Shown here: positions 27,262 to 30,936 of the stretch, one piece after another | How the letters are laid out: each line of letters starts with the position of its first letter | How positions within the stretch are numbered: position 1 is the first letter of the stretch | Source of the DNA: Psychrobacter pasteurii | GTDB taxonomy: Bacteria; Pseudomonadota; Gammaproteobacteria; Pseudomonadales; Moraxellaceae | Length of the DNA stretch: 43,810 nt | Assembly: GCF_900162815.1 (NCBI RefSeq) | Contig: NZ_FUGD01000116.1 | Coordinates: 1 to 43,810, forward strand | Direction of reading: 5' to 3' | Notes under the pieces: generated by a model | What the model saw: the letters and a program-made list of their open reading frames with translations, nothing else | Told to the model about the DNA's origin: nothing | Database searches by the model: none | Position numbers and translations under genes: made by a program

Positions 27262-27774
27262 TTAATCTGAAGCCTTATGAAATTTCAGAATCTGCCATAA
27301 TTCTTCTTCATTGGCGACAATATCGGCAAGGGTATAGCTATCCATGACCTGCAAAAAGGCTTGAGTTGCCTGATAAAATACCGACTTTAACTTACACACG
27401 GGTGTAATTTCACATATCTCAGCAGGCTTCTTAGGTGGCTTAGTGGTGGCGGTCTCACTGTTTTTATCGTGTGCTGCTACATTAACTCGAGCAAAGCAGG
27501 GGACCAGCTGAAAGTCTGGCTCAGTCTGACGAATCACTTCTCCTAAAATGATATCTTTGGCAGGCTTTGCCAAACGAATGCCGCCATTTTTGCCCCGAAT
27601 ACTGTCAATATAGCCAATCTGTGCCAGTTGATGAATAATTTTAGTGAGGTGGCTACGAGAGATTTGATAGCTATTGGCAATATCAGTGATGGTGGCTAAT
27701 GTTTCACTCTCTGGCATGACAGCCAGATACATTAATGTGCGGAGTGCATAGTCGCTATAGTTGGTAAGGCGCAT
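27262..27774 (-). CDS. nsrR: Rrf2-family NO-responsive repressor, NsrR-like, with an insertion in the cluster loop
   Basis: 170 residues. The N-terminus MRLTNYSDYALRTLMYLA and the winged HTH (SYQISRSHLTKIIHQLAQIG ... RGKNGGIRLAK) are typical NsrR. Three Cys sit at 93, 121 and 127. The last two keep the NsrR form CEITPVCKLK, but the first pair is 28 apart, where E. coli NsrR (from memory C91, C96, C102) has 5. About 23 polar residues are therefore inserted inside the iron-sulphur loop. NsrR proteins bind an Fe-S cluster and lose repression when NO attacks it. Neighbouring nnrS supports the NO role. It is divergent from the CopD-like gene. Confidence 0.88.
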   Translation of the reverse strand: MRLTNYSDYALRTLMYLAVMPESETLATITDIANSYQISRSHLTKIIHQLAQIGYIDSIRGKNGGIRLAKPAKDIILGEVIRQTEPDFQLVPCFARVNVAAHDKNSETATTKPPKKPAEICEITPVCKLKSVFYQATQAFLQVMDSYTLADIVANEEELWQILKFHKASD

Positions 27775-28414: not shown

Positions 28415-29647
28415 TTAACCAAATAAACCATCGCCTCTGGGTTTGGCAAGAATAGACAAATAACTAAAGCAAAATAAGACAAAACTGCCTATCCAAGCAC
28501 TTTGAGCCAACATAATCCACATCAAGTAAGCGTTAGGGGCGACCAGAGGTAGTATCACTCTAAACACAAAAGCTAGCACCATTAAAGCAAATATAAAGTT
28601 GACTGTTTTTGGGGGAGAGTGAATGCTGCGACCTGTGTGGCCTAAAGACACTCTAGCCATCATAGCCACAGTCATCATGCCTATTCCTGACAATGCTAAA
28701 GCGTGCACAGCAATGCTATGACTAAAGGCAAGCCAAGGCTGAAGGGCGAACAATAAGAAGCTGATACACATGCCTAAGAAAGCAACAAACAGCGACCACA
28801 GCAAAGGCTTTTGCCACAATCTAGGGTGATACCAACCTATTAGGCGTATGCTATTCATAAGCGCCACTATAAAGGCACTGGCACTGACCAAATAAGGGTT
28901 GGGATAAAAGACATCGGCAATCATAAATACCAAAAATGAGCCGAGACTAAGGGCATCTAAAGTTTTATTGTTTTTAACGCTAATTTCTTCCTCACTATCG
29001 AAGCTAAGTCCCCGTTCAAGAAAGAAGGGCACCACTCGGCGACCTATGGTGAGCACGATTCCCATGACCAGATATAAGCCCAAATAGACCCCAATGCGTA
29101 GATAATCTTGATCTGCGGTAAAAATTCCCCAGTAGCACAAGCCATTACCTATCGTGAGCAGCACAAGCTTAGAGATAATCCCCATCTGCTTATATTGCTT
29201 AACGGCCATCACAGCTTTAATAATGAACCAAGCCGTAAGCCCCATAAACAATAAATCAAATATCATAGCCATGGCTAACCAGATAGGCATGGCACTCAAG
29301 CCTAACCCTAATGCTGCCCAAGCAAGACGAGCCAGCAGCCAACACCCAAAGATAGCTCCTAAGCGATAACCATAAGGCATCATGATGCCAGTCCATGTTT
29401 TGACTGCGGTTAATAAAAACCCGGCAATAATGGCCATGGCGTAACCATAAAGCATTTCGTGAGCATGCCAATAAAAAGGATTAACCTGAGTGGCATTAAT
29501 CTGGGTGTGGCCTAAGAAGACAAACATCCACAGCGCCATGATAAAGATGGCAAAAATAGCACCCCCACTAAAAAATATGCGAAAGCCTAGATTTAAAATA
29601 GGGTGAGGAGAATAAGGAGGTTTGTTTGGGGGCTGAATTTGTAACAT
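28415..29647 (-). CDS. nnrS: NnrS-family heme/copper membrane protein
   Basis: 410 residues with about 12 helices. The family landmarks are HPILNLGFRIFFSGGAIFA at the N-terminus, YWHAHEMLYGYAMAIIAGFLLTA, GRRVVPFFLERGL, and AVHALALSGIGMMTVAMMARVSLGHTGR near the C-terminus. Conserved His in these segments are thought to bind heme and copper. NnrS proteins protect against NO-derived stress and are often in NsrR or NnrR regulons. It is convergent with the CopD-like gene. The upstream region holds an NsrR-box-like sequence inside a large dyad. Confidence 0.93.
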   Translation of the reverse strand: MLQIQPPNKPPYSPHPILNLGFRIFFSGGAIFAIFIMALWMFVFLGHTQINATQVNPFYWHAHEMLYGYAMAIIAGFLLTAVKTWTGIMMPYGYRLGAIFGCWLLARLAWAALGLGLSAMPIWLAMAMIFDLLFMGLTAWFIIKAVMAVKQYKQMGIISKLVLLTIGNGLCYWGIFTADQDYLRIGVYLGLYLVMGIVLTIGRRVVPFFLERGLSFDSEEEISVKNNKTLDALSLGSFLVFMIADVFYPNPYLVSASAFIVALMNSIRLIGWYHPRLWQKPLLWSLFVAFLGMCISFLLFALQPWLAFSHSIAVHALALSGIGMMTVAMMARVSLGHTGRSIHSPPKTVNFIFALMVLAFVFRVILPLVAPNAYLMWIMLAQSAWIGSFVLFCFSYLSILAKPRGDGLFG

Positions 29648-29714: not shown

Positions 29715-29763
29715 TGAGTATAATATAAACATGTATATAAAATGAATGTTTATATTATACTCA
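29715..29763. promoter_or_regulatory. 18-bp inverted repeat enclosing an NsrR-box-like sequence, upstream of nnrS
   Basis: A perfect 18-bp dyad (29715-29732 and 29746-29763; arm ends AATATAAACAT / ATGTTTATATT) has a 13-nt spacer. The centre, 29731-29747, reads ATGTATATAAAATGAAT and matches 14 of 16 informative positions of the core of the E. coli NsrR consensus as I recall it (ATGYATTTNAAATRCAT). The arms also contain TATAAT on each strand. The dyad is about 70-115 bp from the nnrS start. Confidence 0.6.
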
Positions 29764-29810: not shown

Positions 29811-29844
29811 AAAAAACCCCTAATTGACCTTAGCCAAATAGGGG
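29811..29844 (-). terminator. Leftward intrinsic terminator in the nnrS-thiF gap
   Basis: On the minus strand CCCCTA ... TAGGGG (29844-29839 and 29822-29817), with further pairs inside the 16-nt loop, is followed by T6. No annotated gene feeds it from the right, so it implies a leftward transcript starting in the gap. Confidence 0.7.
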
Positions 29845-29964
29845 GTGGAGAAAGCGATAGTACTGTTTTGCTTATTATTGTTATTAGACAGAGTCAAAGC
29901 TTATAGTTTACAAGTTAATCTTTATAAATCAAAAGCTTATAGCAATGATTGATAATAACTAACT
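29811..29964 (-). ncRNA. Candidate Fur-regulated small RNA
   Basis: The predicted transcript is about 154 nt, from a promoter (TTTACT 30000-29995, 17 nt, TATAAT 29977-29972) to the terminator ending at 29811. A Fur-box-like site directly abuts the -35. The body has no open frame longer than a few codons. It contains an AATAACAATAATAA stretch, an A/R-N pattern suited to Hfq, and a CTCCACCCCC run just before the terminator that could pair with ribosome binding sites. Iron-responsive small RNAs of this design (RyhB, PrrF) are known elsewhere. I see no clear sequence match to them. Ends are predicted, not mapped. Confidence 0.5.
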
Positions 29965-29971
29965 GACAGCC

Positions 29972-30000
29972 ATTATAGGATAAAATGCCCATAAAGTAAA
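29972..30000 (-). promoter_or_regulatory. Leftward sigma70 promoter of the candidate small RNA
   Basis: On the minus strand TTTACT (30000-29995, 4/6) and exact TATAAT (29977-29972) have the ideal 17-nt spacer. The -35 starts at the base next to the Fur-box-like site. Confidence 0.6.
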
Positions 30001-30015
30001 TGATAGTAATTATCA
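30001..30015. promoter_or_regulatory. Fur-box-like operator
   Basis: TGATAGTAATTATCA matches 14 of 15 positions of the 7-1-7 Fur box model (TGATAAT-N-ATTATCA). Adjacent bases continue the pattern (AATGATA ... TATCATTATT). It is 108 bp from the thiF-like start and abuts the leftward promoter. Confidence 0.65.
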
Positions 30016-30123: not shown

Positions 30124-30936
30124 GTGTCAAACCAAGGGTACGATGTCACTTTAAGCGATGATGAATTGATGCGTTATTCGCGTCAAATACTGCTACCTAG
30201 CTGGGATATCCCAGCTCAAGAGAGATTAAAAGCCAGTACAGTAGTTATATTGGGGGCAGGAGGACTGGGCTGTCCGGTTTCAGAAACTTTGGCTCGCGCA
30301 GGAATTGGAGCCATTCATCTTATTGATGATGATGTCATTGAGCCCAGTAACTTACAGCGTCAAACCTTATTTAATATAGAGGATGTGGGTCAAGGCAAAG
30401 CAGAAACAGCGTGTAAGGTGCTATCAAATATTAATTCATTTGTACAGGTAAGCTATTGCGCTCAGCGTTTAACGGTCAAAAACGCTTCTTCATTATTATT
30501 GGTAGATAAAGCCAAAGCGAGCAAGAATCCTTTTTTACTGTTAGATTGTACCGATAACTTTGCTGCCCGAGAGATACTGAATCAAGTCAGTGTGGCGAAC
30601 AATATTCCCTTACTGTCGGCCTCAGCAATTGGTATGTCAGGTCAGTTAGCTTTATATGAGCCAAGTAAACAAAGTGGCTGCTATCACTGTGTCTTTGGTG
30701 AGGCGCTAGATTCGGAGGCGACAGAAGAAAGCCAGGCTCAGACTTGTGCTAACTCGGGGGTGTTGGCAAGTACCACCACAATCATGGGTAACCTTCAGGC
30801 CAATGCGGCTTTACAGTACTTGGGCCGAGGACACAATCCGCTGCCAGGTCAGTTACTGATTTGGGATGGCAATGCCATGACCCAGCACAAGCTGCGCTAT
30901 AGACAAGATAAAAAATGCCGAGTCTGTGCAAGCTAG
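30124..30936 (+). CDS. HesA/MoeB/ThiF-family adenylyltransferase (E1-like)
   Basis: 270 residues. The order is LMRYSRQILLPSWDI, the ATP loop VVILGAGGLGCPVSETLARAGIG, the Asp/Arg region LIDDDVIEPSNLQRQTLF, LLDCTDNFAAR, and zinc Cys pairs CYHC and CRVC. The Cys in QTCANSGVLAST is at the usual catalytic position. Such enzymes adenylate the C-terminus of a small sulphur carrier (MoaD or ThiS) for molybdopterin or thiamine synthesis. With no moa or thi genes nearby, the partner cannot be chosen. The start is GTG with AAAGGA upstream. Confidence 0.92.
   Translation: MSNQGYDVTLSDDELMRYSRQILLPSWDIPAQERLKASTVVILGAGGLGCPVSETLARAGIGAIHLIDDDVIEPSNLQRQTLFNIEDVGQGKAETACKVLSNINSFVQVSYCAQRLTVKNASSLLLVDKAKASKNPFLLLDCTDNFAAREILNQVSVANNIPLLSASAIGMSGQLALYEPSKQSGCYHCVFGEALDSEATEESQAQTCANSGVLASTTTIMGNLQANAALQYLGRGHNPLPGQLLIWDGNAMTQHKLRYRQDKKCRVCAS

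Follow-up and report, generated by a model that had tools for sequence, protein, structure and literature searches.

A conserved, very probably Fur-controlled small RNA gene beside nnrS in one Psychrobacter clade, and its link to the 3′ end of exbD

The DNA analysed here is a 43,810-nt stretch of Psychrobacter pasteurii (contig NZ_FUGD01000116.1, positions 1 to 43,810; hereafter, the window). Between nnrS and a divergent thiF/moeB-like gene it carries a gap in which, along the minus strand, a Fur-like palindrome, TTTACT, a 17-nt spacer, TATAAT, ~155 nt predicted to be transcribed and an intrinsic terminator follow one another (Table 1). By sequence, these are the parts of a short non-coding RNA with its own promoter and intrinsic terminator. 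An earlier note on this gap had taken it for a candidate iron-regulated small RNA (sRNA) gene, and the −35 touching the Fur site, the 17-nt spacer and the exact TATAAT that it described can all be read there. The Fur-box-like site is present too, although the 14/15 credited to it counts the free centre of the 7-1-7 model of Fur sites used for scoring, and the scored positions give 13/14.

Table 1. Features of the nnrS–thiF gap and its two neighbours (window coordinates).
Feature	Position	Strand	Description	Basis
Predicted sRNA	29811..29965	-	~155 nt	Promoter and terminator positions; 5′ end inferred, ~29965
nnrS	28415..29647	-	Downstream neighbour, outside the RNA	Pfam NnrS, E 1.4e-98
thiF/moeB-like gene	30124..30936	+	Divergent neighbour, outside the RNA	Pfam ThiF, E 4.2e-66
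Fur-box-like operator	30001..30015	-	TGATAATTACTATCA, palindromic, written for the minus strand	13/14 scored positions, 7-1-7 model
−35 element	29995..30000	-	TTTACT, abuts the Fur site	Invariant in 7/7 aligned promoters
−10 element	29972..29977	-	TATAAT, 17-nt spacer	Invariant in 7/7 aligned promoters
A-rich (ARN)-type stretch	29865..29885	-	Likely Hfq site (predicted)	A-rich upstream of the seed in 7/7
Proposed pairing seed	29841..29853	-	TTTCTCCACCCCC / UUUCUCCACCCCC	UUUCUCC identical in 7/7, unpaired in 7/7 folds
Intrinsic terminator	29811..29844	-	11-pair stem, one internal mismatch, then T6	Fold −16.5 kcal/mol, z −3.21

The operator TGATAATTACTATCA is the only site in the window that scores at least 13/14 (mean of 0.0 in 20 shuffles of the window) and one of two such sites in 421,990 bases of the same genome. 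The promoter and terminator statistics from this single genome are weak: five sigma-70-like sites were observed in the surrounding 801 bases for 3.0 ± 1.7 expected, which is not clearly above chance, and a simple terminator scan of the 801 bases around the site listed none, presumably because of the internal mismatch in the stem (arms 29844–29839/29837–29833 with 29828–29824/29822–29817; T6 at 29816–29811). The case therefore rests on conservation. The terminator with T6 noticed earlier is present, with its fold kept in relatives, and the whole predicted RNA of the window folds with a z of −2.97.

The thiF–sRNA–nnrS arrangement was found in seven of 105 Psychrobacter genomes, thiF preceding and nnrS following the sRNA in all seven; three of the six carriers other than that of the window are judged to be P. 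piechaudii, P. phenylpyruvicus and P. lutiphocae. For the 3′ end, the covariance model R1 was built on alignment A4 and the rows were then realigned by the model (in the MAFFT alignment, two of the seven sequences were misplaced by one column at their 3′ ends, and a five-row alignment was worse). R1 gave seven strong matches of 67–82 bits, with the next best at 44.5, scores that are high by construction since all seven carriers, window included, trained the model; the evidence independent of R1 is the Fur site, the promoter and the gene order. No comparable R1 match was found in the other 98 genomes, in a search whose filters are stricter above 40 genomes, so that weak matches can be lost. A plain nucleotide search gave some match in 14 of the 105 genomes; five rows (L001–L005) correspond to the gene, those of G055 and G032 being missed, and the nine short rows L006–L014, checked with a pattern search only, showed no such gene. 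A tree built from ThiF of 30 genomes unites the seven carriers with G073 in a single group (support 95/89), next to which stand G097 and then G074 (midpoint root only). G073, a long-branched metagenome bin inside this clade (L020, L048), keeps the gene order and lacks the sRNA, and has no exbD match either.

Across the seven promoters, that of the window among them, the Fur site matches 11 to 14 of the 14 positions, and it starts 15 bases ahead of the −35 in all seven genomes; as far as sequence alone goes, the operator touches the sRNA promoter, a trait of Fur-regulated iron-sparing sRNAs. The counterparts in the six other genomes are 152–228 nt long. Identity to the window is 62–95% for the Fur site (21 nt) and 61–88% from seed to terminator, compared with 50–65% in the upstream flank (towards thiF) and 53–67% in the downstream flank. 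Among the four more distant members, the 5′ body is 40–49% identical to that of the window, no better than the flanks, and the Fur site and 3′ end are 61–81% identical, although the Fur site of G055 is, at 62%, barely above the flank (60%). The 5′ body has diverged while the Fur site, −35/−10 elements, A-rich stretch, unpaired UUUCUCC and terminator have been retained. The comparison across relatives that the earlier note had called for was borne out for promoter, body end and terminator in these seven genomes, but not genus-wide as a stand-alone gene. These data also bear on whether the Fur site instead belongs to the divergent thiF, with the leftward terminator an unrelated leftover or insulator. 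Fur sites are palindromic and this one lies ~110 bases upstream of thiF, but it touches leftward −35 and −10 elements that are invariant in all seven genomes, and the poorly kept bases are those towards thiF, which makes this alternative very unlikely.

A coding function appears even less plausible. The only ORF of at least eight codons inside the window RNA has 25 codons and starts from TTG, so the earlier description of ~150 nt without an ORF holds for conserved ORFs only. Individual members offer frames of up to 25–30 codons, as an mRNA for a small protein would need, but the seven members share no frame, start or peptide, and one lacks any 8-codon ORF; we regard such an mRNA as extremely unlikely.

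Another alternative is that the RNA is an iron-controlled nnrS leader; in its favour, nnrS lies downstream on the same strand in 7/7. A long transcript would then run from the Fur promoter into nnrS, and the hairpin would act as an attenuator or leaky terminator. In the six relatives and in the window, however, ~150 to 340 bases separate the T-run from nnrS and contain a ACATTCAT-type element; several nnrS genes at loci without the sRNA have a like element upstream; and the 3′ module also ends exbD and desaturase genes that, at the loci examined, have no nnrS behind them. A leader thus seems unlikely to us, and a stand-alone gene is the preferred reading. Upstream of nnrS in the window there is a palindrome, AACATTCATTTTATATACATGTTT (29727–29750, minus strand), that we take to be NsrR-like, and the ORF at 27262–27774 putatively encodes an Rrf2-type regulator. 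Pfam upholds the earlier names nnrS and thiF-like for the neighbours; the suggested connection of the sRNA with nnrS is one of neighbourhood only.

Within the predicted RNA, no part is better kept than the C-rich run singled out in the earlier note; its UUUCUCC, which formed part of the pattern used to locate the carriers, is unpaired in all seven folds. The stretch described there as Hfq-friendly is likewise found upstream of the seed throughout and is a likely Hfq site; Hfq is encoded in all seven carrier genomes, and an ARN stretch, a U-run and a genomic Hfq, the sequence marks of an Hfq-dependent sRNA, thus occur together. The terminator stem appears to covary modestly. The counts come from only seven sequences, which were aligned to the structure of the model itself. 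Four of the ten modelled pairs changed on both sides; seven cells did so, a number reached by 4 of 500 shuffles, while the number of pairs altered on both sides is less striking, as 63 of 500 shuffles equalled it. Sliding the partner along the stem lowered pairing from 82% to 34–57%.

Most of the next-best R1 matches across the genus lie directly behind exbD, the last gene of tonB–exbB–exbD (identified by the Pfam names at L160), and an exbD match was obtained in 102 of 105 Psychrobacter genomes. Because R1 gives credit to A-rich ends in general if a terminator follows (the plain exbD end of G038, which has no CUCC, still reaches 27 bits), the count did not rely on bit scores alone. The module of A-rich stretch, CUCC and terminator follows exbD in 84 of the 95 exbD-bearing genomes that lack the stand-alone gene, a count that includes a borderline case (G072) and two added by eye (G068 and G029) and that uses a final rule (CTCC at most 14 nt before or at most 5 nt into the stem) chosen after the data and prompted by the near misses UACCUCC and UCUCUCC; the first pattern had fitted 69 of 100 readable ends. 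The module is absent in the other 11 (G001, G005, G018, G026, G069, G071, G074, G077, G078, G087 and G096). By either rule it is found in none of the seven stand-alone-gene genomes, where exbD ends in a plain terminator instead; in G055 a CUCC lies 239 bases past exbD, beyond its terminator. Fisher's test of 84/95 versus 0/7 yields 1.7e-6, a value that treats kin genomes as independent and is no fair probability, because the seven carriers are one group. The exbD modules comprise 57 distinct sequences among 82 aligned rows. As background, of 156 terminators that follow ORFs in 421,990 bases of the genome to which the window belongs, three have CUCC at the stem, one of them a desaturase end; in loci of exbD-type genomes the count is 1 of 38, this one being the desaturase end L134, retrieved as a model match. 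At two loci an insert was recognized by eye: after exbD in G011 (L198), with the module surviving ~1 kb further on, and between exbD and the 3′ module in G018 (L222), with CUCC lost.

A Fur-like site (15/19) occurs ~70 bases ahead of the tonB frame in G020 and G015, both exbD-type genomes examined there; sites upstream of tonB in the stand-alone clade score 13–14 of 19 (G032, G000 and G046), and the best Fur match in G055 is apparently not upstream of tonB. Given the Fur-like site before tonB, the exbD 3′ end should also be made in iron starvation. As for its history, the module is present in G097 and absent in G074, and in other genera of the family none of 12 exbD ends carries it (9 with the stop located, 2 read from the match end and 1 re-read). 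An order in which the exbD module came first and was lost where the stand-alone gene arose would fit, with the one clade counting as one event and G097 being a long branch. The reverse order could also have occurred, and a later gain of the module at exbD would fit the 12 module-free ends.

The 12-nt seed TTTCTCCACCCC has nine copies with zero mismatches in five stand-alone genomes, for a chance expectation of ~0.35 per genome (even base composition): five in this RNA and four behind a fatty-acid desaturase gene (G000, G038, G044 and G046; absent in G039). Desaturase ends with an A-rich stretch, UUUCUCC and a terminator were seen at L155 (G000:C40:49037–49110, minus strand), L156, L158, L416, L134, L258, L260 and L261, and three genomes of genus g10 of the same family, probably Moraxella, have UUUUCUCCACACCC behind the same desaturase gene. 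It is possible that the desaturase end is a separate 3′ UTR-derived sRNA, common to another genus of the family. Between the desaturase gene and a weaker match of 35.7 bits, P. lutiphocae (G032) has a frame that by eye resembles a transposase.

In four of the five genomes TTTCTCCACCCC is present exactly twice, once in this RNA and once downstream of the desaturase gene. This would suit a sponge or decoy that mimics the desaturase 3′ end through its seed and competes with it for a common partner, with no direct silencing of mRNAs. Equal seeds fit equally well two RNAs with common targets, however, and a dedicated starvation promoter and an Hfq-type 3′ end would better suit a silencer, so we consider a sponge quite unlikely and retain the silencing sRNA as our reading.

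Similar ends also turn up elsewhere. L157 (G055:C1:2849523–2849597, minus strand; 41 bits) is an A-rich, CCCUUUCUCC, terminator end behind a 247-residue frame. In G284 of genus g15, probably Acinetobacter, CUCUUUCUCC, an A-rich stretch and a terminator lie ~114 bases after a 229-residue frame (L255), an unrelated place where this end possibly arose independently. Family-wide, R1 matches, Acinetobacter-like ones included, were mostly ends of unrelated genes (21 places viewed).

Target prediction from the C-rich run, suggested in the earlier note, gave no signal and named no target. TGGAGAAA before ATG was found 115 times in the seven genomes versus 127 for the reversed control, the complement of the 12-nt seed with at most one mismatch 42 times versus 94 for the control in five genomes, and by duplex energy sodB ranked 198 among the 341 genes scored. 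Paired TGGAGAAA sites present in all seven listings, corresponding to nusG and rplL in the window's genome (named by eye from the protein starts), were considered and rejected. UUUCUCC resembles a general anti-Shine-Dalgarno sequence, which leaves specificity unexplained.

At gathering score, Rfam had no family match in the window gap or in the loci of 11 relatives. Up to an E of 10, the window stretch drew nine chance-level names, with RyhB, PrrF and NrrF not among them; the best, NsiR1, was discarded at 20 bits versus the 39 needed. The RNA thus falls outside the RyhB, PrrF and NrrF covariance models, and the lack of likeness to RyhB and PrrF reported in the earlier note holds as far as Rfam tells. 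RyhB of enterics, PrrF of Pseudomonas and NrrF of Neisseria are stand-alone genes with a Fur operator at the promoter, an intrinsic terminator and an Hfq-type 3′ end. The window RNA resembles them in each of these respects and differs in having a UUUCUCC seed beside the terminator.

Fur control and a C-rich seed are also features of two sRNAs of another phylum. According to the available text of PMC9410917, FsrA of Bacillus is Fur-controlled and binds Shine-Dalgarno sequences through a C-rich motif, and IsrR of Staphylococcus is a Fur-controlled sRNA with C-rich single-stranded stretches. FsrA differs in using FbpABC, and IsrR in having three C-rich regions within or beside hairpins, where the window RNA has one, beside the terminator; the lack of an Rfam match to either here is informative only if Rfam models them. 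Aar of Acinetobacter, of the same family Moraxellaceae, is raised by iron limitation and blocks ribosome-binding sites with a CUCC seed (available text of PMC11472050; seed restated in that of PMC12802169). The window RNA shares the CUCC and is set apart from Aar by description: its CUCC lies ~37 nt before the 3′ end, unlike that of Aar, an RNA of 103 nt with CUCC at positions 29–32, far from the terminator, for which the same portion of PMC11472050 makes no mention of Fur regulation. HemZ of A. baumannii is an example of a 3′ UTR-derived sRNA (PMC12802169, in the text available); the exbD and desaturase modules would be of this kind, whereas the window RNA has its own promoter. Among the titles and abstract openings searched, we found no iron-responsive Psychrobacter sRNA and no Fur/Hfq sRNA like this one; nor did we find a paper on exbD with a UTR-derived sRNA or on an exbD 3′ UTR sRNA and Fur.

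The anatomy of the gene, its conservation in one clade, the constancy of an unpaired seed and the Hfq of all seven genomes were computed here; from these we infer that the gene is transcribed, that Fur represses it, and that its RNA binds Hfq and pairs with whatever targets it has. Our preferred explanation, to which we assign a probability of roughly 0.78, is a stand-alone gene for a trans-acting sRNA that would be Fur-repressed, use Hfq and pair through UUUCUCC with ribosome-binding sites. Iron-loaded Fur would cover the operator touching the −35 and keep the gene off; as iron falls, Fur would leave and an RNA of ~155 nt, ending at its own terminator, would be made. Its A-rich stretch and U-run would recruit Hfq, and the single-stranded UUUCUCC beside the terminator would pair with mRNAs at purine-rich ribosome-binding sites, reducing their translation and most likely sparing or redirecting iron, which is often limiting in Psychrobacter habitats. 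The iron-regulated sRNA proposed in the earlier note is thereby supported by the seven-genome arrangement and the stem changes on both sides, the iron response and the pairing being predictions. In our best reading, the sRNA would work like RyhB or FsrA while being unrelated to them by sequence, and the locus is very probably a real, conserved sRNA gene under Fur control that represents a new sequence family.

Such an sRNA is ordinary in kind; its link to the exbD 3′ end is unusual. More tentatively, and with somewhat less than an even chance in our estimation, one seed may have three carriers: in most Psychrobacter the iron-starvation sRNA would be the 3′ end of tonB–exbB–exbD, one clade with a plain exbD terminator would have placed the same function on a free-standing Fur-controlled gene, and the desaturase copy would tie the targets to membrane lipid control. 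The exbD module, absent where the stand-alone gene is present, would then illustrate, in nature, the passage of an sRNA between an mRNA 3′ end and control by a promoter of its own.
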